In this document: in pieces, positions 9,346-47,800 of the stretch
Layout: each line of letters begins with the position of its first letter
How positions within the stretch are numbered: position 1 is the stretch's first letter
DNA from: a virus
Direction: 5' to 3' (one strand)
Length of the DNA stretch: 53,900 nt
Virus record (IMG/VR): IMGVR_UViG_3300030107_003563
Location: 1-53,900 of that record
Position numbers and translations under genes: made by a program
Notes under the pieces: generated by a model
The model's database searches: none
Told to the model about the DNA's origin: nothing
Seen by the model: only the letters and a program-made list of their open reading frames with translations

Positions 9346-9380
9346 TGTAAATTATAAATTAATTGTGTGATAATAGAGTT

Positions 9381-9647
9381 ATGAGTAAATTTAAACTAAA
9401 GGGGCCATCGCTTTATCCAAATATAATAAGATCTTCTTCTGGATATCGGATTAATTCCGATGCATACAATGAAAGTTGTTTAATTGTACCTGATAACAAA
9501 ATCAGCATGAAAGAAGAAAATGGCGATCCTTTAGAAAAAGGTAAGATAAAAGGTACTGGTTTAACAACTGGAACAACAATAATAATGGAACCTGGTAAAG
9601 AATACGAATTTCCTGGAGATGAGGAAGTATTAGAAGAACCAGTATAA
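9381..9647 (+). CDS. Small protein with KFKLKGPSLYP N-terminus, 88 aa
   Basis: An in-frame ATG lies at 9363, but the ATG at 9381 is preferred because it yields MSKFKLKGPSLYPN, a diverged form of the MAFKMKGSPMYRN leader seen on the genes that follow. The remaining ~75 residues are polar, with a short predicted beta section (TGTTIIMEPGKEYEFPG) and an acidic end. No domain is recognised. It is followed 13 bases later by the first canonical MAFKMKG gene. Confidence 0.65.
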   Translation: MSKFKLKGPSLYPNIIRSSSGYRINSDAYNESCLIVPDNKISMKEENGDPLEKGKIKGTGLTTGTTIIMEPGKEYEFPGDEEVLEEPV

Positions 9648-9660
9648 AAAAAATAGTAAT

Positions 9661-10029
9661 ATGGCATTTAAAATGAAAGGTTTTCCATTTGCAGGAAAAT
9701 CACCAATAAAAGATATAACAAGAAATCCTTCGTACCCAGGTTCTCATAATGAGGCTCATCAATTATTTGACGAAGGAAAAGGTCCAGATCCACACGCAGA
9801 AACTAAGCCTCTTAAACAAAAAGAAGAAAAAAGCTTTACAGACAACGAAGAATCTTACATGGATAAAGTTTACGCAGAAGTAAGTAAAATGATGGGAGAT
9901 AGTGGTGGCTATGATATTGGAGAAATAGTAGCTATGTCTGAAAAAGAAAGAATAGGTAATATAGACGGTTATGAATCAGGAGATTTTGCTAAAATGGTAG
10001 CAAAAGCTAAAAAGAAAGTTAAAAGATAA
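9661..10029 (+). CDS. MAFKMKG-leader protein, 122 aa
   Basis: The first canonical member of the MAFKMKG family: MAFKMKGFPFAGKSPIKD opens the protein, giving both the FKMKG and the (K)SP elements of the signature. The rest is charged and helical with a lysine-rich end (MVAKAKKKVKR). No domain, membrane segment or signal peptide is recognised. It probably belongs to the virion or its assembly, because the same leader appears on other late genes. Confidence 0.75.
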   Translation: MAFKMKGFPFAGKSPIKDITRNPSYPGSHNEAHQLFDEGKGPDPHAETKPLKQKEEKSFTDNEESYMDKVYAEVSKMMGDSGGYDIGEIVAMSEKERIGNIDGYESGDFAKMVAKAKKKVKR

Positions 10030-10035
10030 ATAAAC

Positions 10036-10293
10036 ATGGCGTTTAAGATGAAAGTACCTTTTCTTATCACCTATAAAATGAAAGGTGGCATCCTATGTGA
10101 TGCTCATGGTAAACCTGTTGGGCCCACAAATCCTAATAGGTGTAACCCATACGATCATCCTCCAGGTCCAGATAATCCATGTACTAAAAAAAATAAAGAT
10201 CCAAAATTAGCTGCAATAGGCGGTGAAACTAGTTGGCGAAATAAAGGAGGTCTTTTCGCGTATAAAAAGAAAAGATCTTGCGGTTGTAAATAA
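10036..10293 (+). CDS. MAFKMK-leader protein, Cys/Pro-rich, 85 aa
   Basis: The MAFKMK leader is followed by a second partial copy of the same string (TYKMKGG, residues 13-19). The middle is proline- and cysteine-rich (NPNRCNPYDHPPGPDNPC) and the C-terminus is KKRSCGCK. The cysteines could bind metal or cross-link. It starts six bases after the previous stop. No domain is recognised. Confidence 0.7.
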   Translation: MAFKMKVPFLITYKMKGGILCDAHGKPVGPTNPNRCNPYDHPPGPDNPCTKKNKDPKLAAIGGETSWRNKGGLFAYKKKRSCGCK

Positions 10294-10307
10294 AAAATAA
10301 ATAAACT

Positions 10308-10838
10308 ATGGCATTTAAAATGAAAGGATTCCCAATGCACAATACATCTGCATTGAAAAACTATAAAAACCCACAAGACTACAAAGTATTTAACATGGGT
10401 AATAAACCATCACCATTTGAGCAAACAGATGGTGATCTAAGAGAGTGGTTATTAGGTGAAAAGGGGTTTAGCCAAGAAGAAGCTGACCAAATGATTACAT
10501 CTGGAGCTTATACTACTTCTAATGAAGATTTCTTAGCGTGGTATAATAAAAGAGGAGAAACTCAAGATTTAGCAGAAGAACGTGTAGATGCCCCAGTAGA
10601 AGATCCTCCAGTAGAAGGTTCTGCAATGAACTATAAATCTCCAATGGCGAATAGAGTAACAAGTGATGTAACCAAACTACCAGTTAATCATGAACATAAG
10701 GATAAAGATGGTAACGTTATAGAAACTCATACTTATGCGCAACCTAAATATTATGAAGGCACCAAAAGGATCAGACCAGGAGGAGTTGATAAAGTGGGAA
10801 CAATAACACCAGCTCCAAAGATGAAAAAGAAAAAATAG
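10308..10838 (+). CDS. MAFKMKG-leader protein, 176 aa
   Basis: Begins MAFKMKGFPMHNTSALKNYK. An acidic helical middle section (EWLLGEKGFSQEEADQMI) is followed near residue 105 by AMNYKSPMANR, an internal SPM motif that recurs in the 904-residue virion-type protein. The end is basic (PAPKMKKKK). No enzyme motif is seen. Its position and leader suggest a virion or assembly role. Confidence 0.72.
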   Translation: MAFKMKGFPMHNTSALKNYKNPQDYKVFNMGNKPSPFEQTDGDLREWLLGEKGFSQEEADQMITSGAYTTSNEDFLAWYNKRGETQDLAEERVDAPVEDPPVEGSAMNYKSPMANRVTSDVTKLPVNHEHKDKDGNVIETHTYAQPKYYEGTKRIRPGGVDKVGTITPAPKMKKKK

Positions 10839-10849
10839 GGAAAGTCCCT
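10837..10849 (+). terminator. Small hairpin after the 176-residue gene
   Basis: AGGGA-AAG-TCCCT forms a 5-bp hairpin directly at the stop codon. It is not followed by a T-run, so it is a weak terminator candidate at best and may only be a transcript-end or stability element. Confidence 0.25.
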
Positions 10850-10884
10850 AAACCAAGTCAATATTAACCAAAAAAACCAAAAAA

Positions 10885-11178
10885 ATGACTTATTTATACT
10901 ACAAGACTAGTACATTAACTAGCAACACAAAACCAAATGAGAAAACTATTAACCAATGGGAGCATTTAGCCAGTAAGAAAAACTGGAGAATTACGCAATT
11001 ACCTAATGGATTTTACCAAACAGAGGTAAATGATCCAGAAAATGACAAAAATTGGCATGACGTAACGCGTAGAGAGACCATAGAAGGCGCAGAAGCTGCA
11101 ATTGACGGCAGTGTTGAACATTTCTCAAAGAAATTAGAGGCTACAAAAGGCCCAAAAGTAATAAAAACGTTCGAATAG
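10885..11178 (+). CDS. Unknown protein, 97 aa
   Basis: A 97-residue soluble protein beginning MTYLYYKTSTLTSNTKPNEK, with WEHLASKKNWRITQLPNGFY suggesting a small alpha/beta fold. It lacks the MAFKMKG leader. It lies 28 bases before the chaperonin gene and probably shares its transcript. No family is assigned. Confidence 0.7.
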   Translation: MTYLYYKTSTLTSNTKPNEKTINQWEHLASKKNWRITQLPNGFYQTEVNDPENDKNWHDVTRRETIEGAEAAIDGSVEHFSKKLEATKGPKVIKTFE

Positions 11179-11206
11179 AGCACAATTTAATTAAATTTAA
11201 TCAAAT

Positions 11207-12772
11207 ATGGAATACAATCAGCCTAGCGAGATTGTCAAAGATGTAAATTTTGGCGATATTGCTAAAAACAAAGTAATTGCTGGTGTAGAAAAGCTAGCAA
11301 AAGCAGTAAAATCAACCTTAGGAGCATCTGGAAAGTGCGTAATTTACGAAGACGCCAGAGGTCTCCCGGTCATAACAAAAGATGGAGTAACAGTAGCAGA
11401 ATCTGTAGTCTTATTTGACCCGGTTGAAAATATGGGTGCTACCCTTATTAAAGAAGCTGCAAGAAATACAGTAAGAGAAGCAGGTGACGGTACTACTACA
11501 GCTACCGTCCTTGCTGAATCTTTGATAAAAGAAGTTAGTAAGTGTAAAGCTAATACAAGAGAAATAAAAGACGGGATTAAATCTGGTCTTACAAAAGTAA
11601 ATGATTACCTTAATAAGATTTCTGTCAAGATCGAGGGCGATATGCTGAAATCTGTTAGTTCAATTAGTTGTAATAATGATGAAGAGCTAGGAAAGATTAT
11701 AGCAGAAGCTTATACTAAAGTAGGTAAAGATGGTGTGGTGTTAATGGAGGAGTCTCCAACAGAAGAAACGTATGTTGAAGTCGTAGATGGTGTACAGATA
11801 GACTCAGGACTCACATCTCCACATTTTGTTACCGATAAAGACAAGCAAATTTGTGAGCTTGATAATCCTTTAGTATTAATCGTTTCTTCAGAAATCCCAA
11901 ATATAAGAAGAATACAAAAAATATTAGAGTATGTTATTAAGAATAAGAGATCATTATTAATTGTAGCACCAGTTGACCAGCAAGTTAAAGCTGCTCTTCT
12001 TATGAATAAGGTAAAAGGTAACATTAAAGTTAACATCGTTGACTTACCAGGCTTTGGTCCTACTAAAGAAGATACAGTTGCTGATTTAGCATTCTTGGTT
12101 GGAGCTAAAGTAATTAATGAGCAATTAGGTGATGATCTTGATTTAATCGATATAGATTGTTTAGGTGAAGCATACACTTCTATAACTGACGATAAAAACA
12201 CTGTTCTTACTATAGATACTCCAGAAGATCAAATGGAGGAGAGAATTAAAAGTATTAAGAAAACTATAGATAAGTGGGATAAAAATCCATTTATACAAAA
12301 GAAACATAAAGAAAGATTAGCTATGCTATCTGGATCAGTAGGAATGGTAAAAGTAGGTGCTGATTCTAAAGTTGAACTTAAAGAAAAGAAAGATAGAATA
12401 GAAGATGCTATCTACGCCACAAAAGCAGCTTTGAAAGAAGGTATTGTACCAGGAGGAGGTGTAGCGCTATTAAACGCTTCTCAAAAAATTTCGACCGACT
12501 GCGTCGGTGAAGAGATACTTTCCAAGGCTATTCAAGCTCCTTTCTACACTGTATTAGAAAACGCGGGTATTACCTACCCAGATTACGATGGTGTAGATGG
12601 TGAAGGTGTTGATGTTGTTACTGGAGAAAAAGTTGATATGATTAAAGCTGGTATCATTGATCCAGTGCTTGTAACTAAGTCAGCATTAAAAAACGCTGTA
12701 AGTGTAGTTTCAACAATTATATCTGCAGATTGTGTAATTTCAAATATGAGAATGAATGAAAGCGATCAATAG
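11207..12772 (+). CDS. groEL: GroEL-type chaperonin (phage-encoded)
   Basis: A 521-residue group I chaperonin. ATP-binding signatures are TLGASGK near 37-43, VITKDGVTV near 55-63 and EAGDGTTTATVLA near 91-103, with the Asp94 position equal to GroEL Asp87. RIEDAIYATKAALKEGIVPGGG near 395-416 carries the catalytic Asp398 equivalent. The apical domain is present but diverged. The C-terminus ends NMRMNESDQ and lacks the flexible GGM tail of cellular GroEL. It should form a ring that folds phage proteins with the GroES-like partner, whose start overlaps this gene's end by 17 bases. Divergence and the phage context argue against a contaminating host gene. Confidence 0.95.
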   Translation: MEYNQPSEIVKDVNFGDIAKNKVIAGVEKLAKAVKSTLGASGKCVIYEDARGLPVITKDGVTVAESVVLFDPVENMGATLIKEAARNTVREAGDGTTTATVLAESLIKEVSKCKANTREIKDGIKSGLTKVNDYLNKISVKIEGDMLKSVSSISCNNDEELGKIIAEAYTKVGKDGVVLMEESPTEETYVEVVDGVQIDSGLTSPHFVTDKDKQICELDNPLVLIVSSEIPNIRRIQKILEYVIKNKRSLLIVAPVDQQVKAALLMNKVKGNIKVNIVDLPGFGPTKEDTVADLAFLVGAKVINEQLGDDLDLIDIDCLGEAYTSITDDKNTVLTIDTPEDQMEERIKSIKKTIDKWDKNPFIQKKHKERLAMLSGSVGMVKVGADSKVELKEKKDRIEDAIYATKAALKEGIVPGGGVALLNASQKISTDCVGEEILSKAIQAPFYTVLENAGITYPDYDGVDGEGVDVVTGEKVDMIKAGIIDPVLVTKSALKNAVSVVSTIISADCVISNMRMNESDQ

Positions 12773-13013
12773 ATATATAATAGTAGACAAGATAAAAACA
12801 GGGCCTAAAAAGGTTGCTGGTCTTATAATGACAGATGATACCGATGTTGACAATAGGTATTTAAAAGCAAAAATAATATCGTGTGGTAATTTAGTTGAAG
12901 GATTAAAAGATGGAGATACGATATATTACGATAAACATGCTGGACACGACATATCATGGAAAGATACTCTTTATAGAGTTATTCGTGATGGTGACGTTGT
13001 TCTAGTAGATTAA
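12756..13013 (+). CDS. groES: GroES-like co-chaperonin
   Basis: An 85-residue protein of GroES size and pattern: NRYIIVDKI (first strand), GPKKVAGLIMTDD in the mobile-loop position, then LKAKIISCGNL...GLKDGDTIYYDKHAG, the core strands of the barrel. It is shorter than typical cellular GroES (about 95 residues), like other phage co-chaperonins. The 17-base overlap with groEL in a groEL-groES order is the reverse of the usual bacterial groESL order. Transcription and translation should be coupled to groEL. Confidence 0.85.
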   Translation: MKAINRYIIVDKIKTGPKKVAGLIMTDDTDVDNRYLKAKIISCGNLVEGLKDGDTIYYDKHAGHDISWKDTLYRVIRDGDVVLVD

Positions 13014-13083
13014 GCCTAAACCACAACCCTTAAACCTTAAACTTAAAAACGAAAACAAATTATTAATTAAAAACAAAAAAATT

Positions 13084-13398
13084 ATGAACAGAAGTGATGA
13101 AGTTTATTGTTTTGCTCAGGTTGCAGATAACGACTCTTGTGGCTTTCCTTTATCTAGATTAAGATCTATAAACGGAGGGACAGGGGAACTTATTCTAGCT
13201 ATTGATGAGCCATCAGGAAACGTTGATGCTATTACACTAACAACTGGAGCAGATGAGCTTACTGCAGCAATGCAATTATGTAGAGCTTTAAGTGAAGCTA
13301 CTAGAAACACACAATCAAACGTTGTAGTATTAGCTAACTTAGCTGCTGCCACGGTAACTGTTATTCCAGAAATTACTGGTTGCAGTACTATAGCCTAA
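13084..13398 (+). CDS. Small beta-rich unknown protein, 104 aa (paralogue of next gene)
   Basis: A 104-residue protein with PLSRLRSINGGTGELILAID, an ITLTTGADELTAAMQLCRAL helix and a C-terminal hydrophobic strand-rich part. Order and spacing of elements match those of the next gene (PVSKMKGMEGKDGTVDISFD, then TINTSDEFQAMQDIAEAI), so the two look like diverged tandem paralogues. Small beta-helix proteins of this type are often virion components. No family is recognised. A 70-base A-rich leader precedes it. Confidence 0.72.
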   Translation: MNRSDEVYCFAQVADNDSCGFPLSRLRSINGGTGELILAIDEPSGNVDAITLTTGADELTAAMQLCRALSEATRNTQSNVVVLANLAAATVTVIPEITGCSTIA

Positions 13399-13423
13399 TT
13401 ATTAACATTATAAAATAAAAAAA

Positions 13424-13708
13424 ATGATAGAGAAATTTTTAGTCATGCAAACTGCAGCAAACGATGTTATGGTATACCCTGTATCTAAAATGAAAGGTAT
13501 GGAAGGTAAAGATGGTACTGTTGACATTAGTTTTGACACGGTTGGAGCTGACGACATATTAACAATAAATACAAGTGATGAGTTTCAAGCAATGCAAGAT
13601 ATTGCTGAAGCTATAGGTGGTAACAAAGATGGTGCTATCTTACTTGGTGATGATGTAGCTGGTACTTATATTAGTACTAGTATCACATCTATCGGTGATT
13701 CAGCATAA
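13424..13708 (+). CDS. Small beta-rich unknown protein, 94 aa (paralogue of previous gene)
   Basis: A 94-residue acidic protein, parallel in layout to the preceding 104-residue one: an opening strand (FLVMQTAANDVMVYPVSKMK), a beta-hairpin, a helix, then two Gly/Asp-rich strands. It lies 25 bases after its paralogue. The tandem pair could encode abundant small structural or decoration subunits, which is inference from size and position. Confidence 0.72.
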   Translation: MIEKFLVMQTAANDVMVYPVSKMKGMEGKDGTVDISFDTVGADDILTINTSDEFQAMQDIAEAIGGNKDGAILLGDDVAGTYISTSITSIGDSA

Positions 13709-13713
13709 TCTGA

Positions 13714-14154
13714 ATGCGATTAACCGCGCAGGATCTGCGTGAAATGAATATCCTTAAGTATTACAGGCTCACTAGAAAGTGGGTCTGTAAAACTTACGGG
13801 TTAAAAGATGCAGATTTAGAATTATTAATTTATTTAGATTGTAAAGGAAGATTTACACGACAAGACTTTATAGACGGTGTTTATACATATTCGTGGGATA
13901 AAGCAAGATGGGACAGATTAAGAAACGAAGGTTGGATTGATGTATGGAGACATAGAAATAGAACAACTATAATGTATTCAGTTTTTAAAACCTCGTGGAA
14001 ATGTTCTCAAATGATAAGTAGGATATATCGTATCCTATTAGGCGAGGAAGACTTGCCCACTTCAGAAAGAAGTGTATTTTATAAGAATAAATCATATACA
14101 GATAAAGTTTACAATAAAGCTATAGATGATATGATTAAAGATAAAGATAGATAA
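13714..14154 (+). CDS. Winged-helix (MarR-like) protein
   Basis: A 146-residue protein whose pattern fits a winged helix. KTYGLKDADLELLIYLDCKG (about 27-46) is the first helical section, FTRQDFIDGVYTYSWDKARW with LRNEGWIDVW corresponds to recognition helix and wing, and a following helix covers KCSQMISRIYRILLGEED. This resembles MarR-type DNA-binding proteins. Its presence among late genes is odd for a regulator; it might be a structural protein that reuses the fold. It is followed one base later by a MAFKMRG gene. Confidence 0.65.
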   Translation: MRLTAQDLREMNILKYYRLTRKWVCKTYGLKDADLELLIYLDCKGRFTRQDFIDGVYTYSWDKARWDRLRNEGWIDVWRHRNRTTIMYSVFKTSWKCSQMISRIYRILLGEEDLPTSERSVFYKNKSYTDKVYNKAIDDMIKDKDR

Positions 14155-14155
14155 T

Positions 14156-14362
14156 ATGGCATTCAAAATGAGAGGTTTTAGTCCCTTTACACAAAAAGTC
14201 GATCCAGATGCACCTGGTACTCCAGGAGAACCTGGATATGAACCACCGGTTAAACGTGAAGATTTAGACGAAATGGGTAAAAAGATTTGGGATTGTCACA
14301 GAAATCCAACAACTAGATGGAATAACAAGACTAAAAAGTGTGAACCAATAAAAAAAGATTAA
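14156..14362 (+). CDS. MAFKMRG-leader protein with C-x-WN-C motif, 68 aa
   Basis: Opens MAFKMRGFSPFTQKVDPD, which shows both the leader and the SPFxQK extension. It is followed by a proline-rich linker (APGTPGEPGYEPP) and a C-terminal module CHRNPTTRWNNKTKKC. A similar cysteine-bracketed WN module recurs in the 904- and 3701-residue proteins. It starts one base after the previous stop. Confidence 0.75.
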   Translation: MAFKMRGFSPFTQKVDPDAPGTPGEPGYEPPVKREDLDEMGKKIWDCHRNPTTRWNNKTKKCEPIKKD

Positions 14363-14363
14363 C

Positions 14364-14780
14364 ATGGCTTTTAAAATGAAAGGTAGTCCTATGTATAGAA
14401 ACTTTGGTATTAGCTCTCCTATTCAACAAAAACGTTGTTTGGAGGGTTTTAAAGGTAGCTGTAGGTTAAACTTATGGGACAGAATAAAAAGTAATAGAGG
14501 TTGGAAAAAATTCAAATACAATTTAAAAGAAGGATTTAAAGATATTGGAGAGGGATTAAGAGATGCTGGAGATTGGACTGGTATAACAGACTTTGATAAA
14601 GATGGACGCTGGTGGCAAAGTAATGACGATCAAACTTCTTGGGGTAGTGGTAGAGATCTTAGACACAAACCTATAAATAGAGGTAAAGGTAAAGAAGAAG
14701 AGTATATAACGCTAGAAGATGATATTTGGCAGCAGCAGTTTGAGCAAGACGAATCGGGAGGTGAACAAAGATTATCATAA
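14364..14780 (+). CDS. MAFKMKGSPM-leader protein, 138 aa
   Basis: Opens MAFKMKGSPMYRNFGISSPI followed by QQKR, the fullest form of the leader in the window. A basic section with CLEGFKGSC follows, then a long charged helical region (KKFKYNLKEGFKDIGEGLRD) and an acidic Trp-containing end. No enzyme motif is seen. Confidence 0.75.
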   Translation: MAFKMKGSPMYRNFGISSPIQQKRCLEGFKGSCRLNLWDRIKSNRGWKKFKYNLKEGFKDIGEGLRDAGDWTGITDFDKDGRWWQSNDDQTSWGSGRDLRHKPINRGKGKEEEYITLEDDIWQQQFEQDESGGEQRLS

Positions 14781-14792
14781 ATAATAAAAGAT

Positions 14793-15014
14793 ATGGCATT
14801 TAAAATGAAAGGGTGGTCCCCACTTAACCAAAAAAAAATATGGAAAGAAGGTGAAGATTACGTAGATAAAGATGGGAACTATTGGAGTTGGGATACTTTT
14901 ACAAACAAACATAATAAAATAGATATCGATTTAAGAGGCGTTCCGGCTAAAGATTGGAAGAAAGAAATAAGAAAACAAGATCCTGATTTTAAATTTCCTA
15001 ACGAAGATAAATAA
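14793..15014 (+). CDS. MAFKMKG-leader protein, 73 aa
   Basis: Opens MAFKMKGWSPLNQKKIW, then the KEGEDYVDKDGNYWSWDTF tryptophan-rich middle. The leader and SPLNQK extension are clear; the rest is a short charged domain with no recognised family. It starts 12 bases after the previous stop. Confidence 0.73.
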   Translation: MAFKMKGWSPLNQKKIWKEGEDYVDKDGNYWSWDTFTNKHNKIDIDLRGVPAKDWKKEIRKQDPDFKFPNEDK

Positions 15015-15015
15015 T

Positions 15016-15423
15016 ATGGCATTCAAAATGAAACGCACTAAAGCAACTTTTCCTTTTAAAGGAGAAGGTCATGACTTCTTACATAAAGGAGATTATAAAA
15101 TAGTACGTAAAGATTTAGACGAAGGTGTACTTGGAGAGGCTGAAAATGGTAAAACTATCAATATAGATGTAAGTATACCTAAAGGTAGTAAAAAAGAAAA
15201 AGAAGTTGTTACACATGAAATACATCATCAAGAGGAAATGAACAATGGTGATTTATCATATGATGATGATAGTGTAGAAGATAAAATAGCAAATAAAACA
15301 TATACAAGAGAAAACGGTAATTTAATAGATGATGAAACCGGAGAGGTTTACGAAGAAGGAGATGATAGTTTACCGCATGAGCAAAGAGCATACAAAGCTA
15401 GTAATAAAATAAAAAACGCATAA
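15016..15423 (+). CDS. MAFKMK-leader mini metalloprotease-like protein, 135 aa
   Basis: After MAFKMKRTKATFPFKG comes a small domain with the zincin motif HEIHH (residues 67-71, His67, Glu68, His71) on a predicted helix (EVVTHEIHHQEEM). Glu122 in HEQRAYKAS is the likely third zinc ligand. This layout (HExxH, then ExxAY some 50 residues on) matches small phage and contractile-injection-system peptidase domains. It could process virion proteins or attack the cell wall or a host target; nothing decides which. An unusually acidic insert lies between the motifs. Confidence 0.7.
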   Translation: MAFKMKRTKATFPFKGEGHDFLHKGDYKIVRKDLDEGVLGEAENGKTINIDVSIPKGSKKEKEVVTHEIHHQEEMNNGDLSYDDDSVEDKIANKTYTRENGNLIDDETGEVYEEGDDSLPHEQRAYKASNKIKNA

Positions 15424-15424
15424 T

Positions 15425-16045
15425 ATGGCATTCAAAATGAACAGGCCCTTAAAAATGGCTGGAACAAGAAAATCAACAATAAACAGATACGGTAGAAAAA
15501 CAAAGCCAGCTATGGAGATGGAAAGCGGTTTATACTACAATAGTGCCATGGGCCCTATGAAAATGCACTCACCATCTGCATTAAAGCAAATGGAAGAAGG
15601 TATGGGTGATATGGGTGGTATGGAAGCAATGATGGGTATGATGGGTGGAGCTCCAGAAGGAGGAGGTGCACCTGCTGATACAACAGCAGCTCCAGCTGAA
15701 AAAACAGAAAAGAAACAAGAATCTTGGAGTTTTGACGAAACTGATCTTCAAGGTGGTGATATGGGAGAAGTTAAAACAGATGAGGCTACTGGACAACTTT
15801 ACGTTATTGTAGAAAACGAAGACGAGTTAATCGCAGGCTTAGGACAAGATATTAAAGTTATAATACCCCCAAACATTGCAAAGCAGGCCAACGCTAAACC
15901 TGGTGAATTACTTACTGGTGGTGATTATCAAGTTCAGTTAAACCCTGAAACTAACGAGTACGAAATACAAACTATGAACGACGAAAGCCAAGGAGAAGCT
16001 ATTGAGAAAATAGAACAAGGCGAAGGAGGAGAAAGCGATTACTAA
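15425..16045 (+). CDS. MAFKMN-leader protein, Met/Gly-rich, 206 aa
   Basis: Opens MAFKMNRPLKMAGTRKS. Residues ~45-80 include MKMHSPSALKQ (an SP motif) and a striking Met/Gly-rich tract (MGDMGGMEAMMGMMGG), then an Ala/Pro linker. From ~100 the protein is acidic and beta-rich (DEDELIAGLGQDIKVIIPP-type strands). The Met-rich part looks disordered or membrane-active. The stop overlaps the next ATG by one base. No family is recognised. Confidence 0.7.
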   Translation: MAFKMNRPLKMAGTRKSTINRYGRKTKPAMEMESGLYYNSAMGPMKMHSPSALKQMEEGMGDMGGMEAMMGMMGGAPEGGGAPADTTAAPAEKTEKKQESWSFDETDLQGGDMGEVKTDEATGQLYVIVENEDELIAGLGQDIKVIIPPNIAKQANAKPGELLTGGDYQVQLNPETNEYEIQTMNDESQGEAIEKIEQGEGGESDY

Positions 16046-16251
16046 TGGGTTGGTTTAAAGTAATGGGTGGCGTGACCACCCCGTTTTTACAAAAGAAACC
16101 TGTTTTTGATGAAAGTAAAGGTTGGAAAAAAGGTGAGGCTTATACGACTAAAAGCGGGGTAAAAGGTCATTATGTTTTCGATCCTAAAGGTAAAAAATAT
16201 TTTATGACTAGTGATGGTAAACTACACACTGGTCAAATAGACGATTTATAA
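16045..16251 (+). CDS. Small protein, GGVTTPFLQK leader, 68 aa
   Basis: Opens MGWFKVMGGVTTPFLQKK, paralogous to the next gene's MGLFKFIGGVATPFLQKS. The TPFLQK element is the same as the SPFxQK extension on MAFKMKG proteins. The rest is a short basic beta domain (YVFDPKGKKYFMTSDGKLHT). No function is assigned. Confidence 0.68.
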   Translation: MGWFKVMGGVTTPFLQKKPVFDESKGWKKGEAYTTKSGVKGHYVFDPKGKKYFMTSDGKLHTGQIDDL

Positions 16252-16252
16252 T

Positions 16253-16480
16253 ATGGGACTATTTAAATTTATAGGTGGTGTTGCTACACCATTTTTGCAA
16301 AAATCATACTGGTTTAAAAAAGATGGTAAAAATATAACGCAAAAAGAATATTGTGAATGGCAAGGTAAAATAGGGCCAGATGTACCACCTTCTTTTAATC
16401 TACAGACAAACCATCCAGATGCTTGTGGTTTAAAGGCTAAAAGAGAAAAAGCAAGAAAAGAAAACGATAAAAAGAAATAA
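16253..16480 (+). CDS. Small protein, GGVATPFLQK leader, 75 aa
   Basis: Begins MGLFKFIGGVATPFLQKSYW. The first 18 residues are a close duplicate of the preceding gene's start while the remainder differs, so the leader has been conserved or swapped independently of the body. A Cys pair (YCEWQGK ... DACGLK) and a lysine-rich tail follow. It ends at the holin start. Confidence 0.68.
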   Translation: MGLFKFIGGVATPFLQKSYWFKKDGKNITQKEYCEWQGKIGPDVPPSFNLQTNHPDACGLKAKREKARKENDKKK

Positions 16481-23990: not shown

Positions 23991-25112
23991 ATGGAAGAAA
24001 ACAAAGAAAAAGAACTACCTAAAAAAGAGGAAGTACTAAGTCAACAAGAAAATACTAATGAAAAAGTAGAGGGTTTAAAAGTAAAAAAATCAAAAAGTAA
24101 AGAAATACCAGATATTGTTAAGGTAAAACTAACAAAGCCTACAGAGGAAGTTAAACCGGAAGTTACTAAAGTTGATTTGACTAACGCAAAGCCTGTTACA
24201 GAGGAAGTTGTAGAACAACCTGAAGTTGAGCAGCAACCTATAGTTGAAATTACAAATGAAGAACCAGTAAAACCTCAACTACCTCCACAGCCAGAATTAC
24301 CAGAAGGTATACAAAAGGTTGTTGATTTTATGAAAGACACTGGTGGTGATTTAAACGATTATATAAATCTAAATAGAAGTTTTGAAGATTATGGTGATGA
24401 TGATTTACTTAGATCGTATTATAAAGACACAAAACCTCATCTAAATGACGAAGAAATAAACTTTTTAGTACAGGAAAGTTTTGATTGGGATGAGAAAATA
24501 GATGACGAAAGAGATATAAAAAGAAAAAAATTAGCGTTAAAAGAGCAAGTTGCCAGCGCTAAAAGCCACCTGGACGGGCTAAAGTCCAAATACTATGAAG
24601 ATATTAAAATGGGGTCTAAGCTCACTGAAGAGCAACAAAACGCTATTAAATTCTTCAACGAGTCAAAAGAGAGACAACAAGCGTCAGAAAACGCGCAATC
24701 TATGTTTTTAGAACAAACTAATCAAGTGTTTAATGATGATTTTAAAGGCTTTGAATACAAAATTGGTGACAAAAGATTTAGATATAACGTGAGTGATACT
24801 GAAAAGGTGAAAACAACTCAAAGCGACATTAACAATTTCATAAGAAAGTTTCTTAATGAAAAAAATGAAATGGAAAACGCGAGTGGTTATCATAAAGGAT
24901 TATTTACAGCTATGAATTCCGATGCTATTGCTAATCATTTTTATGAACAAGGTAGAGCAGACGCTTTAAGAGAAAGTGTTGCAAAATCTAAAAACATTAA
25001 CATGGACCCTAGGCAATCACACAGTGGAGAGGTTAGGTCTGGTGTTAAAGTAAGAGTTTTAAATGATAATCCAAATGACTTTAAACAATTTAAAATTAGA
25101 AAAAATAAATAA
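23991..25112 (+). CDS. Scaffold protein
   Basis: A 373-residue acidic protein between portal and capsid. The N-terminal ~105 residues are a disordered Lys/Glu/Pro/Val-rich tract (VEQPEVEQQPIVEITNEEPV); the centre is helical and coiled; the C-terminus is short and basic (FKQFKIRKNK). This composition, and the place in the cassette, fit a scaffold that directs prohead assembly and then leaves. No protease motif is present, so a fused maturation protease is unlikely. Confidence 0.8.
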   Translation: MEENKEKELPKKEEVLSQQENTNEKVEGLKVKKSKSKEIPDIVKVKLTKPTEEVKPEVTKVDLTNAKPVTEEVVEQPEVEQQPIVEITNEEPVKPQLPPQPELPEGIQKVVDFMKDTGGDLNDYINLNRSFEDYGDDDLLRSYYKDTKPHLNDEEINFLVQESFDWDEKIDDERDIKRKKLALKEQVASAKSHLDGLKSKYYEDIKMGSKLTEEQQNAIKFFNESKERQQASENAQSMFLEQTNQVFNDDFKGFEYKIGDKRFRYNVSDTEKVKTTQSDINNFIRKFLNEKNEMENASGYHKGLFTAMNSDAIANHFYEQGRADALRESVAKSKNINMDPRQSHSGEVRSGVKVRVLNDNPNDFKQFKIRKNK

Positions 25113-38041: not shown

Positions 38042-38521
38042 ATGCCTAATAATCAAATAAAGAAAAAAGATTTACTCGTAACAGAGCGAGACAAAGTGTT
38101 GGATATAGAAAAAGCTTTGATTGAAAACGCTGACGGAGAAAATATTGTAACAACACATGATACCGATGCTTTTCCTTTAAAGCATATTTTTGCAGATGGA
38201 GTGTATGTAAGACAAATGTACATGGCAAAAGGAACCGTTGTTATAGGTGCTATACAAAATCATTTACATGTATGGTATTTGTTAACTGGAAACATAGTCG
38301 CCGCCACTGAAGATGGTATTGTTGATTACAAAGCACCTTGTTATGTAGTAGCTCAACCGGGGACAAAAAGAGTTATACATGCTGTTGAAGATTCTATATT
38401 TATAAATATACATAAGAACCCTACGAATACACAAGATTTAGATGAACTAGAAAAACAAATAGTTTCTAGTAGTTATGAAGAATATGAAAAATACGTTAAT
38501 AATAAAAATAATATAATATGA
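38042..38521 (+). CDS. Cupin-fold virion protein, 159 aa
   Basis: A 159-residue protein with a cupin core: GTVVIGAIQNHLHVWYLLTG gives the metal-binding HxH strand, and YKAPCYVVAQPGTKRVIHAV the second conserved strand pair. Phage cupin proteins of this type are common among structural proteins in marine phages. Metal or sugar binding is possible. The stop overlaps the next ATG by four bases. Confidence 0.75.
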   Translation: MPNNQIKKKDLLVTERDKVLDIEKALIENADGENIVTTHDTDAFPLKHIFADGVYVRQMYMAKGTVVIGAIQNHLHVWYLLTGNIVAATEDGIVDYKAPCYVVAQPGTKRVIHAVEDSIFINIHKNPTNTQDLDELEKQIVSSSYEEYEKYVNNKNNII

Positions 38522-39153
38522 GCTGGATAATGGTTGGTGTTGCTGTTGTTGGTGGTGTATCTAAAATGATAAGCGCCAAAAAAGATCGTGACGCCAGAAA
38601 AGCAGAGCAAGAAAGAGCTAATAGAGAAATTGCTAAACGTAGACAAAGATTAGAAAGTCTAGACCTTACTAATCCATATGCTAATCTACAAAACACATAT
38701 GAAGATTTAACAATAAATCAACAGCAAGTTGACTTTCAAAGAAATCAAATGGCTATTCAACAAGCCAACGCTATGCAAAACTTACAAGCCGCGGCCGGTG
38801 GTAGTGGTGTAGCTGGTTTAGCACAGCAAATAATGAACCAAGGACAACAAATGTCAGGTCAAATAGCTGGAAGTATAGGTCAACAAGAAAGAGCTAATCA
38901 AATGGCTAGAGCACAACAAGAAGCAAGTATACAAAGCCAAAAAGCTCAAGGTGATCAATGGGTTTATAACAAGCAAGAGGCAAGAGAATCAGACTTTTTA
39001 TCTGCTGCTAGGGGTGAAAAAGCAGCCGCAGATAGAGCTAGAAGCGAAGCGGCAACGTTATCTTGGCAGGGTGCTAGCGAAATAGCGGGTGGCGTAGCAC
39101 AGGGAACTCAATACGGTGTGGATAACTACGGTTGGTTTGGTGGTGGAAAATAA
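38518..39153 (+). CDS. Internal virion protein-like, Gln/Ala-rich, 211 aa
   Basis: A 211-residue protein: a hydrophobic N-terminus (SWIMVGVAVVGGVSKMISAK), then a Gln/Ala-rich helical body (QQANAMQNLQAAAGGSGVAG; IMNQGQQMSGQIAGSIGQQE) and a Gly-rich end. This fits the T7 gp14-type ejection protein, which enters the outer membrane of the cell. The assignment rests on composition and on position before the two very large proteins. Confidence 0.65.
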   Translation: MSWIMVGVAVVGGVSKMISAKKDRDARKAEQERANREIAKRRQRLESLDLTNPYANLQNTYEDLTINQQQVDFQRNQMAIQQANAMQNLQAAAGGSGVAGLAQQIMNQGQQMSGQIAGSIGQQERANQMARAQQEASIQSQKAQGDQWVYNKQEARESDFLSAARGEKAAADRARSEAATLSWQGASEIAGGVAQGTQYGVDNYGWFGGGK

Positions 39154-39164
39154 CAATATAGAAT

Positions 39165-41879
39165 ATGGCAAAGAAAAAAGATAAGAAAGGTACAGGGTTT
39201 TTACAAAAAACTTACGACATAGCTACAGCTGGAGTTGATCAAGGTACACCAAGAGGTGGCTCTACTTTTGACGAAGCGTTTGCTGCCGCTGGAGGTGGTA
39301 GATATGGTAATCCTGGTGCTGGGAATACTGGTTATAGTGTAAACTGGAGTGAGGTTGATTTTGGTAAGAAAACCATTGAAGATTTAATGAAGCACCAAGA
39401 AAACCAACGTAATAAAAAAGACATCGACGCTAGAAGGAAAAAATGTATTGAACAAAAAGGACAGTGGAATCCAACAACAGGTACTTGTGATAAGGAAGGT
39501 TTAAAAGATGATCAGCAAATTTTCTTAAAAAAGAAAGCGTGTGCAAAAAGAGATGGATACGAGTGGAATGATGATTTACAACTTTGCGTAGAAATAGAAG
39601 GTAAAAAAGATGGCCCAATAATAGAGTGTAAATGTGGTGGTAAAGGAACACAAGAAGAGTGTGATAAAAAATGCAAGAAAAAAGATACAGATGATTGCCC
39701 AGAAGGTTATGAAAAAGTGGACGGGATATGCCAACCGAAAACAGATACGGATGGCGCGGTAGATAAGCCGTGTGAGTGTAATGGTGAAGTTACTAGAGTG
39801 CCAATCAGTCAAGATTGTCCACCTTGTGATGAACCAGACCCAAACCGATGTGCTGAAGACGAGTATTGGGATGGGGTAAGATGTGTTAAGAAAAGAAATC
39901 AAGGTAAAGATATACCTGGCTGTACAAATCCTGATTCTGAAAATTATAATCCTGATGCAACTATAGACGATGGTTCGTGTAAGCCTGTTAAAAAGAAAGA
40001 TGATGATGATGATGTTGTAATTGATGACGTAGATGAAATAAGTGAAGACGATATAGATAACACATATGCTAAAGGTTTAAATGACCCTTTTAACCCTGAA
40101 GTTACTTCCGATGAAGATATAGAAAAAATAAACAATTCGTTTACCGGTAGAAACGAAAATGAATCACTAATGCCAGGTTTAAGTCCAAACAATAGTTGGA
40201 ATGATTCAATTGGTGGTGGAGAATTTAAAAGTTTTGATCAAAAACAAAATTTTAAAAATGGTAAATTTTCCGGGTATCAAAGCAAAGGTAGAGATAGCCA
40301 GGGTAAGAGATGGAACTACAGCTTTAAAATAGATAAAAAAGGCTACATCCAGTTTGACAAGCCTTATAAAAAAATGGGGAGTGGTGTTAACTTGGTAATG
40401 CAGAAACTTGGTTTTAGTGGCAACAAGGGTAGGTTTACAAAAAGCGAATGGAATAGATTTACTAAAAAATACAATGAGGCTTTACAGGCCGCTATAAATA
40501 AAAGAACTGAACTAATAAAGCAATACGGTGAAAATCGTAATACAATAAACAAAATATTCTATGGATTAAATGCTGAGGAAAAAGCTTTACTTCGAATGCA
40601 CGCTAGGGGTTTTTTTAGAGGCGGTTCTACACCATTAAACTTTAAATCTCAATTTGATTATACGCAACCTATACCAGTTCAATTTAAATCACCATTTGCT
40701 AGTCGTTCTGCATTTAGAAGTCGTTTAAAAACACGTGAAAATTGGATGCCAATTCAATCGCCAATGAATTATGGTAGTCCACTACACCAGCAAGAACAAG
40801 ACATTAGCCAAATGCAGTTTGGAAGTATATGGGAAAAGATACAGGCATATGGCTCTGATATGGATAAGAAAATAGATAAGTTTATAAAACACAGTAATTA
40901 CAACGCTGAAACGGATAAACCTATAAATTCATTCCAAAACCAAGAGTGGATTGGTATAATAACAAAATGGTTGCAAGAGCAAAAGGCAGCGATGATTAAA
41001 GCTAAGAAGAATAATGATGAAAAACAAAGAATATCTACAGCTGTTAACACTTTAATACAAGATGTAACTACTTATTCAGGTAAGTTTTTAGATTGGATAG
41101 CTAGAAACGCTGGAGACGAAACAGAAGGTAATGCTGGTGGCTCTGTTGTTTCTCAGGGTTCTAGAAAAGATGAAAGATTTATTGGTAATATTACTTTTAT
41201 GGGTGATAAAAACACTACTATAGCTATTGGACCTGATGGTAAAATAGGTATAAAATCTTTTGGTTTACCTGAGGTTAAGTTTGTAGAAGAGTTAGACACC
41301 GATGTATTTGCTAAAGATGATATGGGTTATGCACAGTTTTTAAAAATATCAGAAGAACTTCAAAAGTTAGCAGAGAGTGGTAAGCCTTTAAATGAAAACA
41401 CTGTAAAGGGTAATGCTGATCAACTGTTAAAAAATGAAGATAGTATTTTATCTTGGGCGTTTGATCCTTTGTATGGTCAATCTTGGCTTCAAGATTATTT
41501 AGAAGTTGATCCTAATGTTGATGTTGATCAGTTTATGCCAGAAAGCTCTAAGTTTGACTTAGATCGTTTAACAGATGAAATACATGGTTGGTTAACTTCC
41601 AAAATGAAAGAGGCTTATAATCAAAATGTTCCACAGCAACCACAACAAAAAGGAGATGCTGCTCAAGCTATAATGGACCAAACGTTAGCTAGTGTAGAGG
41701 AGGAAAAACAAAACAAAGAAGGCGTTTATGCTGACTCACAACAAGGACCACCTCAAGGACCACCTCAGGGACCACCTCAAGGACCACCTCAGGGACCCCC
41801 ACCTCCGCAAGGAAGTCCAATGGCTTATTCAGAAAAGAAGAAAAGAGCTTTAAGATTGATAAACAAATATATTAAATAA
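39165..41879 (+). CDS. Large Cys-rich virion-type protein, 904 aa
   Basis: Residues 1-30 are a basic leader with FLQK (KKGTGFLQKTYD). Residues ~85-290 are a Cys-rich region with several C-x-(W/Y)-C modules (CIEQKGQWNPTTGTC; CAKRDGYEWNDDLQLC; CPEGYEKVDGIC) and the secreted-flavobacterial motif CTNPDSENYNPDATIDDGSC. Further on come internal SPM signals (SPMNYGSPLHQ near 532; SPMAYSEKKKR near 890), a helical domain, and a GPPQ collagen-like repeat near 862-882. It is probably a virion or ejection protein, since it sits between gp14-like and giant genes. No catalytic motif was found. Confidence 0.7.
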   Translation: MAKKKDKKGTGFLQKTYDIATAGVDQGTPRGGSTFDEAFAAAGGGRYGNPGAGNTGYSVNWSEVDFGKKTIEDLMKHQENQRNKKDIDARRKKCIEQKGQWNPTTGTCDKEGLKDDQQIFLKKKACAKRDGYEWNDDLQLCVEIEGKKDGPIIECKCGGKGTQEECDKKCKKKDTDDCPEGYEKVDGICQPKTDTDGAVDKPCECNGEVTRVPISQDCPPCDEPDPNRCAEDEYWDGVRCVKKRNQGKDIPGCTNPDSENYNPDATIDDGSCKPVKKKDDDDDVVIDDVDEISEDDIDNTYAKGLNDPFNPEVTSDEDIEKINNSFTGRNENESLMPGLSPNNSWNDSIGGGEFKSFDQKQNFKNGKFSGYQSKGRDSQGKRWNYSFKIDKKGYIQFDKPYKKMGSGVNLVMQKLGFSGNKGRFTKSEWNRFTKKYNEALQAAINKRTELIKQYGENRNTINKIFYGLNAEEKALLRMHARGFFRGGSTPLNFKSQFDYTQPIPVQFKSPFASRSAFRSRLKTRENWMPIQSPMNYGSPLHQQEQDISQMQFGSIWEKIQAYGSDMDKKIDKFIKHSNYNAETDKPINSFQNQEWIGIITKWLQEQKAAMIKAKKNNDEKQRISTAVNTLIQDVTTYSGKFLDWIARNAGDETEGNAGGSVVSQGSRKDERFIGNITFMGDKNTTIAIGPDGKIGIKSFGLPEVKFVEELDTDVFAKDDMGYAQFLKISEELQKLAESGKPLNENTVKGNADQLLKNEDSILSWAFDPLYGQSWLQDYLEVDPNVDVDQFMPESSKFDLDRLTDEIHGWLTSKMKEAYNQNVPQQPQQKGDAAQAIMDQTLASVEEEKQNKEGVYADSQQGPPQGPPQGPPQGPPQGPPPPQGSPMAYSEKKKRALRLINKYIK
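41742..41801 (+). repeat. 12-bp tandem repeat coding GPPQ
   Basis: About five copies of CAAGGACCACCT, with CAG for CAA in some units, coding a Pro/Gly/Gln repeat near the end of the 904-residue protein. Silent changes between units suggest the peptide is maintained. The repeat is collagen-like and the number of units could vary between related phages. Confidence 0.85.
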
Positions 41880-41887
41880 AATATAAT

Positions 41888-44800
41888 ATGAAAAAACCAA
41901 GTCCTTTTTTACAGGAAGTAGTTGAAGACATGTTGGAAAATGGCGCTAGCGAAAACGAGATAAAAGACGTTGTAGAAGTATATAGCGAAACTGGTGAGAA
42001 TCTATATGAGCAAGATCAAGAGATTATAGATGACTGTAATCGGAGAGAAGGATACTTTTGGAACTCAGAGGCTAATAATGGTTTAGGTGCTTGTGAGTTA
42101 GAAGTACAGATAGAAGACACTCCTAAAGAAGAAGATATAGATTTAGATTTTTTAACAGAAACTAGTGAGATTCAACCAAAGCAAAACGTAGAAGATTACG
42201 ATACTTTTTCCGAGCAAGTAGTAAGACATTTCGAAAAACTCCCGGTAGAAATGTGGGAGTTTCCAGATCAAGGCGGTTATTTGTTAGAAAACGAAATGTT
42301 TTTAAATGGACTTGACGTTTTAAGTAGACAGCTGGAAGAGGGTATTATTGAGCATTGGCCAGTAGACGATAATGGCGCACAAATACCTCTTGACTTTGAT
42401 GATTTAAAAATCTTTAACAACTACTTAACTATACGTAAGGATTATAATCCTTATGATGATGGCGAAATAGGTGAATCAGGTTATAGTGTGAATTTTGAAA
42501 AAGCTATTTTTGACTCTTATTTTACAAACCTTTCTAAGATGTTTGTGAAAACTACTAGGCCTTTGGATGACGCTTATGCTAGTGGTTATGGTAAAAACCA
42601 AAGAAAAGGACTTTTACCTCCAGCTATAAATAAAAGCGGTGTAGAAAGTGATGAGTTTTTAAAATATCTAATACAAGAATGTGATCATGTAAGGTTGTCT
42701 AGAGAATTAGACAGACTTGCTGAACGTAAAGGAACGGAAAGTTATAACGAGCTAGAAGAAGAGTATAATAGTATAAACGGTATAGAAAGAAAACATTGTT
42801 ATACGCTATCTTTAAATGCTTATGAAGACTACAGGGAGTGGGTTAATAATGACAAATTACCAACGGATTTAGGTGAGCTTGGTTTTGATAAAGTAGTAGA
42901 AAAAAGAACTCAACAATTACAATCAAATTTTTCAATTGAATTATCACGTAGCAATTGGGATCGTTATGCTAAGTTTTGGATTCTTAGGAGTCGTATTACT
43001 CAAGTTACAACTGATGATATTAAAATAGGAATGGGTCTTACGGATCCTTGGCTTACTGACAAAGACATGCGGGAAAGAGCCGAATTAGATCCTTCCCTAT
43101 ATAACACTGAAGAATTTAGAAATGCTATAAGAGACGAGAAAAAGAGGTACTATCGAAACATGCTTCCTAATGTTGAGGACTTCGAAGAGCAATTAACTAG
43201 TTGGACAGGGGGTTTAAACGAAACTAATTTAAGAAAAATACTTGTAGAATCATTCAAAAATCAATTTGGTGCAAATTGGGAGGGAACAACCCATAGCGTT
43301 GCTGGTGTAGAAATAGCTGAAACTGGCGATTGGGTTAATAAAGATGATTTTTGGATAGAAGAGTTGGTGGTTGGACTGGATGCTATTAGAGTTCACCATC
43401 CAAGTGGTTTTTATATGGATATAAACTTAGAAGGTGAGCCTGAGTGTTATAAATCAGGGGTTATTATGAAAAGCTATGAGAGAGATATATGTAAAGATAA
43501 AACTCATAAATGGCTTCAAACTATAATTAATTCTATATCTAACTTTATGGCTGGACCAAGTGATAAGTCTATAGACGGTGGTTATGCGTTTTCAGATAAT
43601 TGGGATGAAATTGGTTTTAAAATCATGCATAAGGACGGGAGAACGTGGGATGAAGTTAGAGATGCTGGTTTAACAAAAAGAAAATTAAATACTCTTAAAT
43701 TTGCTTATCCAGATCAACCAGAGATATTGTTAGAAGACATGGTTCATTCAGACCAAGGCGTGCCCTATACTTATGAAATGGCTGGGGGAACAGGATCTGA
43801 TTTAGCATGGTATAGAATAGATCAAGATGGCAACAAGCAGTTAATAGAAACCTGTGAAGAACAAGTAGCTAGATACATAGATTATAGAAACAAAGGAAAA
43901 GAATGGTACGGAGATGTTCCAAAATGTCAAACTAAAAACGAAAGTGAAGACTCTAAGTATGCGAGGGCTTTAAAATCTTTTTTAACATATAGATATTATT
44001 TCCAAACAAGAAGTTTAAATGGTATTCACGTGGGTTTACAGGGACCTAAATTAGAAAACAAGTTTTATTATCAAGCTCAAGAGAACTCTGTATTTATGGA
44101 TACAGATGTCGATAAAACAATAAGTATTTTATCTGAATGGTATGGTAAGTTAGGATTTACTTTTAGTAACACTAAAGACAAATACGGAGGTATTTCAAAA
44201 GCTTTTGGGGATTGTGCTGGTGAACAAATTGTAGTTACATATAAAGGTGATTCAATTAAATTTCCAACAGGTTTAGACTGTATGGTTTCAGAAACCAAAT
44301 ATATGGGTAGTGAAATGGCTCCTACGCCCACAGAGATTATCGCAGCTATTATAGGTAGTGCTAGAAATAAACTAACGTCTTTTATTGACAGTAAAATTGA
44401 TCCTGTTTATCTAACAAATGTAGAGTTAGACACAGCTATTTGGGATAGAATGTATGGCCCAGAAGGAGTGTTAAATCTTACTAAAAAACAAAAAGGAGAA
44501 TTAGAAGATTTTTTATACAACGAAGAAGATAAAATAAGAGCAGGTATAACAACGGCAGATTATAATGATTTAACCGCTGTAAGAGAAAAAATATATAAAG
44601 GTGATAAAGATAGTGAATACGCTGCGCAAATAAATTTAGCTATAAAAACTTTTAGAGATCTAGGTATTCCAAGCGATAAAATAACAGAGGAAAGAATAAT
44701 TGAATTTGTAACAAATATAATTAAAGCTAATAAAATTGATGAGTTTAGAGAAATTAATTTTTCTAAATGGTATCACAGCTCGCAAGGTAAACAAGATAAA

Positions 44801-47800
44801 AAATTTTGGAAAGACGCAGATAAAGAAGATATAAAAATAAAACTAGAAGCTATTGGAGCGGTTAAAGCAGGTGAAATAGAAATTGAAGTAGAAAACTCAC
44901 TAGAATTAATAAAAACCAAAGAGCAGCAAATTAAAACTAGTCCAGAGTATCAATGGGTACAAAGTCATTTAGATAATATATTAAACCCCGACCATCAATA
45001 TGAGTTAACTAACGCAGAAATACTTACTGGTGATTGGTATCGTGTTGAAACTGGTCCTGCGGCTGGGAAAATTATGCCGATGCGTATTGCTATTCAGTAT
45101 GCTATTTATCTTAAAGCTGTTGAAGAAAAATATGAAGTTTTAAACAAACAACGCGAGGAAGTTGATAAAAAAATATTTCAAATTGAAGATATTGATGCGT
45201 GTTTAAGAACTCTTCAAAAATCATATTCAACTACAGCTTGGATAAATTGGGATCATTTTATAGCTGGAGGACCCTTAACTTATTCAGGTTTAGTTGCACT
45301 ATTGAACTGGAACTCAATGGGAAGAGAAATGTATACGCATAATACAAAAGCTAAGCAGCTACGAATGTCAGAAGTTAGCCAGCATGCTAGAATAAGTTGG
45401 GATGAAGTTCGTGGCATTGATGATGCTTTAGGTTTTGCAGCGCAATTTTTTTCTGAACAAGCTTTTACGTTTGCAGTAATGGGTCCTTTTGGACTTACAG
45501 GGTCTATAGCTGCTAGGGCGGTAGGTGGAATAGTTGGTGGTACTGTTATAGCGTCAACTATGATGACTGGTACTTATTTACAAGCCTACGCTGTTCACGA
45601 AGCTAATGGTGGTACTTGGGATAATTTTGACCCAGACGGGACTGCAATGATGCAGGCTGTAGGTGTTGGTATATTAAACGGTGTGTCAGCGTTTTTCTCT
45701 ATGAGATATTTAGGTAATGTAGCTCAATTAATGCAAAAGTCTGGTACTATAAGAAACATATCAAGAGAGAGTATAATGTCAATGATGAAAAAATCATTAA
45801 ACCTTCAATCAGGTTATTTAGGTTCTAAACTAGCTGATATGTTTGTTGAAACTAGTACTGAACTTATAGAAGGTTATATAACAGGAGAACCTTTAGAAGC
45901 CAACCAAGCTTTAGATGTTTTCATGGAAGTAGGTTTATTTAATACAATACTTGGTTTTATACCTTCAATGAAAGGCGCTGTGTATTCATTCCTAGGAGAT
46001 CATAAGACAACAGAACAAATTCGAAAGAATGAAAAAATAAAGTTAGAAAATGAACAGTATGTATTAAACTGGCAAAAAGAAAGCGGTAGAGAGTTAGTTT
46101 TTGATGAAAATGGTAATATAGATTGGGAAAAAACAAATCAAAATGTAACAGATGGTTCTAAAAACAAAACTAAAGCTCACCAAGCTGGGTTTACGATAGA
46201 AGGAGTTGAGGCTAAACTTGAAGAAAACAAAAAATTACACGAGCAAAACATGTCAGATTTAAAGACAATATTTAATGCTGGTAATAAGTTTGATAAAGTA
46301 GCTTGGTTTGCTATAGGTGATATTTATAGACAGCAAGAAAGACTTAGAGTAAAATTTGAAAATATTCAAAATGACACTAGCTTATCAGCTGATGAAAAAA
46401 AGAAAAAATTAACTGACTTAACTATAGAGTTTAATGAGTTAGAGCAAGTAAGGGTAATGATGGTTAAAAATCCTCAAAGTAATCTTAGTAGATGGGGAGC
46501 TTTAATAAGTAGTAAGAAACAAGCTGATATAGATAAAGCAAACACAATAAGAGAAAGAGTAATTGAAAAGTATAAAAAAGATAATAACGGTAAAACACCA
46601 AGTGATGAAGAAATCGCTTCTCTAGCCTCTCAAGAATACCATGCTGAGTTAATTAGAGAAGATGATGCAAATGTACCTAAAAGAACAAACCTATCTAAAA
46701 GTCATGAGTTAAAAGAATCTATAGATGATGCGGTAACATACTTAACAGATTTATTTAATGATGCTATACAAAAAGTAAAAGCATCAGGAGATTCTCCCGC
46801 AAGAGTGAACGCTCTAAAAAGAGAATTAGAAGCGGCTATTAATGGTATAAGAAATGGTAATCACGGTGTAAACTTTAGTTTAGAACCTTGGAAAAAAGGT
46901 GAAGATCAAAAAAGACAATCTATAACGGTTGTTGAAAATGCTTCTAGAGATGGTAGAACAGAAAATAGAACTCATGAGTTGGGTCACACTGTATTTATAG
47001 AGCAGCTAGGGTTAAACCCAGAGTCGTATCAAGCTTTATCACAAATGGCACTAGAGTTTTTACAAAAACACCATCCACAATTGTTTATACAAATACAATA
47101 TGGTGTTGAAAGAAAAAAGAATAATTTAACTGGTGCTAATGAACTTGTTGCTGATGAAGTTGTGATGAGGTTTTTGGAATTCGTTGGAGATGGTAAAGTT
47201 GATTTGAATAGTAAAAACGCTAATGGACTTGCCACTATGATGATGTATTTTTCAAGTAAAGCTATATCAAAAGATACTAATGCTCAATTTGGTTATAGAC
47301 TAGATGGCGAAGCTGGTGCTATTAATTTTTTAATATCATTAGGTAAAAAAATAAAAGAAGGAACGTTTACTAGAAAAGATGTAGAAACTATTCGTAAAAA
47401 CCAATTTATACAAGAAGCTAAAGACAAAAACGCTGCTAAAGTATACAATACCAACGTGAAAATGAGTGTAGCTCAAGCTGCAAAAGTTAACAAGATTCAC
47501 GAGGAAGAAGGTGATACTGAGATGGGTATTTGGAAAATTATGGAAGAATACGAAGGTATGCTTAATAAAATAGCAAGTGTTTATTCTAATGTACCTGGGT
47601 ATTTTGAAAGCAAGCAAGATTTTATTGATGAAGTTAAAGTTTCTTCTTTTACAAATAATAAAGGAGAACCATATAGAAGTTTATATACATTGATAAAAGA
47701 ATATGATCCATCTACTGGCGTACCTTTATCTGCTTGGATAAATAAATATATAAAAGTTAGGGCTATTGAAGCCGCGGAAAGAATATTTAATTTTGATGGA

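Follow-up and report, generated by a model that had tools for sequence, protein, structure and literature searches.

In a large group of marine phages, many small late proteins begin with one short leader, MAFKMKG, after which a second motif, SPxxQ, is frequently seen. We consider it probable, at roughly two chances in three, that MAFKMKG(x)SPxxQ serves as an address label directing proteins to the virion. The leader was studied in a 53.9-kb IMG/VR virus record (IMGVR_UViG_3300030107_003563, positions 1 to 53,900; the window) and in its relatives, and proteins carrying it are referred to here as tagged. As a disordered tail docking on a common phage component, the label would load otherwise unrelated small late proteins into the particle, from which they would presumably be delivered to the host. 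This assignment is the most likely one because the body of one tagged protein belongs to a family proven to be present in virions of a cultured relative.

The initial annotation had listed eight genes opening with MAFKM(K/R/N), and this was fully borne out. The sequence ATGGCNTTYAARATG is present eight times in the window, always on the + strand and always, with zero mismatches, at the start of an open reading frame (ORF) beginning exactly with MAFKM, against 0.12 such starts expected and a maximum of one in 100 shuffles. The tagged genes form tight same-strand runs with gaps of -1 to 14 bases and comprise 9661..10029 (122 amino acids (aa), MAFKMKGFPFAGKSPIK, with a body common to one IMG/VR relative), 10036..10293 (85 aa, MAFKMKVPFLITYKMKGG, with a second FKMKG-like copy at residue 13), 10308..10838 (176 aa, MAFKMKGFPMHNTSALK, with an internal SPFEQ), 14156..14362 (68 aa, MAFKMRGFSPFTQK), 14364..14780 (138 aa, MAFKMKGSPMYRNFGISSPIQQK), 14793..15014 (73 aa, MAFKMKGWSPLNQK), 15016..15423 (135 aa, a mini metallopeptidase described below) and 15425..16045 (206 aa, MAFKMNRPLK, with an internal MHSPSALKQ). 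Their bodies, previously described as unrelated, showed no mutual similarity by BLASTP, the best E value being 0.015 over 16 residues for a pair involving the non-member gene 16045, and Pfam and PHROGs searches returned no significant match for any of the eight. Upstream of them, an 88-aa protein encoded at 9381..9647 (+; MSKFKLKGPSLYPN), whose gene is started by the ORF tool at a TTG at 9363, carries the leader variant MSKFKLKG; PSLY comes after the leader here and also in MGFKMKGPSLYRN and MGKFKMKGPSLYR of relatives. Downstream, 16045..16251 (+; MGWFKVMGG, MGWFKVMGGVTTPFLQK) and 16253..16480 (+; MGLFKFIGG...TPFLQK, MGLFKFIGGVATPFLQK) are possible degenerate variants, both weak. The initial annotation had listed none of these three, nor the SPxxQ motif.

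A back-translated MAFKMKG pattern matched at least 119 stretches of IMG/VR, and gene maps were drawn for 25 further whole contigs, all of which are syntenic with the window and form one group with it. The shared order is groEL, groES, 13714, tagged genes, holin 16481, terminase, portal, 23991, major capsid protein (MCP), tail genes, 38518, the 39165 position, 41888 and again tagged genes; the tagged islands recur at fixed sites: ahead of groEL, in the interval from 13714 to the holin, behind 41888 and, at times, immediately in front of 38518. The phage groEL and groES (11207..13013, +) adjoin tagged islands in most contigs. Strict leaders numbered one to eight per record and always lay on one strand (46 records), the window having the highest count, and leader-like starts numbered 86 on the late strand compared with 3 for the 441 ORFs of the opposite strand (p 1e-10). 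Relative to the window, terminases were 73-87% identical among the aligned contigs, 65% in the metagenomic phage ctfjg026 and 46% in the Flavobacterium elemo phages. The leader was absent, in the stretches read, from elemoA, phi38:1, phi19:3, Panino, Gundel_1 and ctfjg026. It marks one lineage, a syntenic group of marine phages whose cultured relatives include the Flavobacterium elemo phages and Cellulophaga phage phi40:1. The group that bears it is uncultured, with a podovirus-like gene order and, judging by its relatives, probable Bacteroidota hosts. Exact leaders in bacterial and archaeal genomes were dismissed as chance occurrences (27 matches in 257 gigabases, about 15 being expected from base counts, none near the core genes of the group), and a literature search for the leader peptide found no mention of it.

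The strongest evidence that the leader sits on virion proteins is indirect and comes from gene fusions found in relatives of the window and not in the window itself. In phi40:1, gp099, gp100, gp101, gp069 and gp080 are annotated as structural "based on experimental MS/MS proteomics" (MS/MS, tandem mass spectrometry), gp069 and gp080 being two small basic virion proteins; gp080 is encoded two genes after gp078, the homolog of 13714, which is the site of a tagged island in the group of the window. Leader-tagged proteins (MAFKLKSQSPLKQ...) of five contigs (G007, at 62522-63310, and L408, L409, L410 and L411) end in a gp080 domain, detected in G007 by profile (E 1e-22) and by BLASTP (3.6e-7) and in L409 by BLASTP (4e-8). 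The L409 protein, with 107 residues, is scarcely more than MAFKLKSQSPLKQ plus the gp080 domain, and PHROG 6437 was matched by both gp080 and L409. A similarity of gp069 to tagged L118 (E 1e-4) was weak and Lys-rich and was not relied on.

The second motif links the leader to further virion-protein families. Instances of SPxxQ in the window are SPFTQ, SPIQQ, SPLNQ and SPFEQ, and the pattern SP[FLMAV]x[KQ] was detected within the first 60 residues in 14 of 37 tagged families (2.2 expected) and in 31 of 178 other late families (7.7 expected). It was not enriched in families of the other strand (2/169 versus 4.4 expected) or in core structural families, namely terminase, portal, MCP and tail (2/9 versus 3.4 expected). 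The gene at 38518..39153 (+) encodes a predicted inner-virion protein, a homolog of gp099 of phi40:1 and phi38:1, and some of its relatives bear N-terminal SP[FLM]K extensions (5/80 versus 0.4 expected in one count, 5/22 versus 0.4 expected in another) such as MANKKNSPFK, MANKKSSPMKQ, MKKINSPLKQ and MSLIRKSAFKKVSPFKQ, containing KKNSPFK, SSPMKQ, NSPLKQ and VSPFKQ. It is followed by a 904-aa late protein (39165..41879, +) with KSPFAS and SPLHQQ motifs and by a 3701-aa late protein (41888..52993, +) that opens with MKKPSPFLQ. The homologies of 38518 to gp099 and of 41888 to gp101 were confirmed by profile on the phi38:1 copies, and 39165 was matched to gp100 by position alone, the 904-aa protein having no match in the phage database. 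A fold search with the 38518 model gave no match and a PDB profile search none; the likeness of 38518 to T7 gp14 is confined to its position, its long helices and a hydrophobic start rich in Gly. The 904-aa protein also has Cys-rich repeats (GCTNPDSENYNPDATIDDGSC) beside its KSPF and SPLHQ motifs, and the 3701-aa protein, in which no Pfam domain was assigned with confidence, contains an HELGH motif.

The commonest tagged family is that of 15016, for which the earlier description as a mini metalloprotease is upheld, as a gluzincin-type HExxH metallopeptidase, by its alignment: in 30 sequences the HExxH residues H67, E68 and H71 and the distal E122, which would be catalytic, are invariant together with M1, F3 and K4 of the leader. 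The linker between leader and metallopeptidase core differs in length within the family, from a few residues up to some 40, and in an AF2 model of the protein (mean predicted local distance difference test score, pLDDT, 74) the leader is disordered and the body folded. Because homologs of the core occur without leader in the unrelated phages XacN1, pT24, Cr30 and vB_OspM_OC, the leader can be regarded as a separable module. A fold search against solved structures returned no significant hit, the match to IrrE/PprI (8sln; probability 0.77 over 55 columns) being suggestive at most.

Selection acts on the leader peptide. The 249 distinct tagged proteins fall into about 121 body families at the clustering threshold of this analysis, so that the leader persists while bodies diverge, a conservation across phages beyond nucleotide identity whose absence the initial annotation had named among the refuting signs. 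The silent variation noted earlier in the window (GCA/GCG/GCT, TTT/TTC and AAA/AAG) was seen as described, and across 154 MAFKMKG leaders the codon usage for Ala, Phe and Lys is close to that at codons 2-8 of genes without the leader. Conservative variants such as MGFKMKG, MAFKLKS and MAYKMKG are common, and the motif floats: it can begin after 4-12 residues (MSGPFKMKGSP, MKKSGFKMKGFSGF, MERKKAGKGFKLKGHTLPG), is duplicated in MAFKLKSSNTPSFKMMGSSPM, and occurs internally as FKMKG at residues 74 and 97. The leader is missing from MCP, portal and terminase and from the tail genes. That the shared starts are copied DNA, from recent duplication or serving as a linker for gene shuffling by recombination, would agree with the fast turnover of the islands and the tight packing of their genes; it is nevertheless already contradicted by the codon data, with synonymous sites varying at background frequencies and conservative amino-acid variants frequent, and is hardly credible. 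The initial annotation had named a translation-enhancing leader, whose first codons would raise initiation with the peptide incidental, as the main alternative. The leader is mostly at the extreme N-terminus, the upstream region is A-rich and MA starts are common; an effect on initiation would, however, account neither for synonymous codons at the background of other gene starts, nor for leaderless core virion genes, nor for the displaced and internal copies, nor for the linked SPxxQ or leader residues as invariant as the catalytic ones. We therefore regard it as very unlikely.

Two further explanations accept a function of the peptide and place it elsewhere. The leader might localise proteins to a non-particle site in late infection, for example the host membrane, the lysis complex or a replication compartment; its short basic and hydrophobic tail resembles a peripheral anchor and some tagged islands adjoin holin 16481, but the island behind 41888 lies at a distance from the holin, homologs of the virion proteins 38518 and 41888 carry the linked motif, and members of the gp080 virion family occur fused to the leader, which makes this unlikely. 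Rather less likely again is that tagged proteins are virion proteins docked by their leader on an outer or tail component and not packaged as internal cargo. MS/MS cannot tell inside from outside, and LamG and tail genes are nearby; against this, predicted inner-core proteins share the SP motif, families of terminase, portal, MCP and tail proteins show no enrichment of it, and the bodies are small and variable, as cargo would be.

The address-label reading itself has several observations to contend with. None of the tagged proteins has been observed in a particle, and "structural" by MS/MS does not mean inside the head; some tagged genes adjoin holin or lysis genes; the SP motif occurs on a minority of 38518 homologs only, the window's own 38518 being without it; and of 18 terminase loci picked blind to the leader, each with 6 kb or more of upstream sequence, only 8 had leader-like genes in the stretch sampled, so that the leader may not be universal. 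In addition, gp080 of phi40:1 enters virions leaderless, and in that lineage the leader is therefore not what targets it. What the sequences show is a leader conserved as a peptide, modular, located in late islands, sharing a motif with a predicted inner-virion protein and fused to a family verified in virions of a cultured relative; that tagged proteins are in particles, lie inside the head, are injected and have a given docking partner is inferred. As we envisage it, the leader, borne as a disordered N-terminal tail, and the SP motif would dock during assembly on a common phage component, with 23991 (the protein at the scaffold position), the portal and an inner core of 38518, 39165 and 41888 as candidates; the small proteins would thus be co-assembled into the particle and, by analogy with the T4 internal proteins, delivered into the host. 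Of the virion-targeting, processing or anchoring signal originally put forward, targeting is indirectly favoured by the late-strand islands, the SP motif on a gp099-family protein and the gp080 fusion. Leader removal by a prohead protease is not supported: Pfam scans of the late ORFs revealed no prohead-type protease family, although an unrecognisable one is possible, and no conserved cleavage motif follows the leader, the subsequent residues being variable.

The protein at 23991..25112 (+) lies between portal and MCP and has a conserved C-terminal alternation of hydrophobic residues and Lys, seen in 26 of 26 contigs (DFKFKIKN, SFKIRKK, KLKIKTK), whose FKFKIK-like end resembles FKMK of the leader; being a single family, it was lightly weighted. 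It is tempting but doubtful that the leader mimics a terminal docking peptide of this protein (DFKFKIKN in relatives of 23991 versus FKMKG), which would amount to an extensible cargo-loading code, legible from sequence alone, for more than 100 injected-effector families in one marine phage group. The elemoA homolog of 23991 starts with MFKMKLEG and that of phi38:1 with MAFFKKQG. Should the leader prove to be a packaging address, every protein of these marine phages that starts with MAFKMKG would become a candidate virion cargo or injected effector, the approximately 121 families would form a sequence-only catalogue to be tested for host-takeover and anti-defence roles, and the leader itself could serve as a short tag with which to load proteins into phage heads.

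Elsewhere in the window, 3271-4215 (-) encodes an ATP-dependent DNA ligase (Pfam DNA_ligase_A_M; best NCBIfam PRK09125) whose N-terminal MRRQFLKQITLGSVAMTFMPQIVFS stretch resembles an export signal of the twin-arginine type, which is unexpected in a phage gene of the replication strand. An exported-looking protein lies at the contig end (53020-53900; MVKRLIILLLLVSNIVTAQ...KFSTFYAAVNGGTSLSDV), and relatives have counterparts of it following their 41888 homolog; at the same place several relatives (e.g. L101, L108 and L093) encode tagged or neighbouring proteins with CWKGYERVPGT...KKVCLPAAK and KFKVYPSAYAN segments. Scans of the window for tRNA genes and Rfam families returned nothing, and a promoter scan was at chance level.

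The capsid-targeting sequence (CTS) of the T4 internal proteins had been proposed as the closest parallel, which stands for a conserved leader on diverse bodies and is not supported for cleavage in the prohead. We know of no sequence resemblance between the two, and because cleavage is not supported the leader was not filed as a T4 CTS but likened to it by function, not by sequence comparison. On IPI-III and Alt the CTS is a short conserved N-terminal leader that sends highly diverse bodies into the particle (PMC3012670, PMC5694885) and is cleaved by gp21 (PMC5694885). The MAFKMKG system likewise places a short conserved N-terminal peptide on otherwise unrelated proteins, but it differs in showing no prohead protease family and no cleavage motif, in its second, linked SPxxQ motif and occasionally internal leader motif, and in belonging to phages with podovirus-like gene order and probable Bacteroidota hosts. 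In the giant phage SPN3US, N-terminal propeptides have been proposed to target ejection proteins (PMC5694885); unlike the leader, these are mostly long (several of more than 100 residues) and processed. The crAss001 phage is a Bacteroidota podophage that stores a cargo protein in its virion (PMC10172136), and the cargos of crAss001 and of podophage ejectosomes are, in the part of the source consulted, few and large, with no common leader mentioned there. In P1, the N-terminal 30 residues of DarB suffice to send a reporter to the capsid (PMC9024508), yet that signal is described on one large protein, whereas here one leader spans about 121 families.

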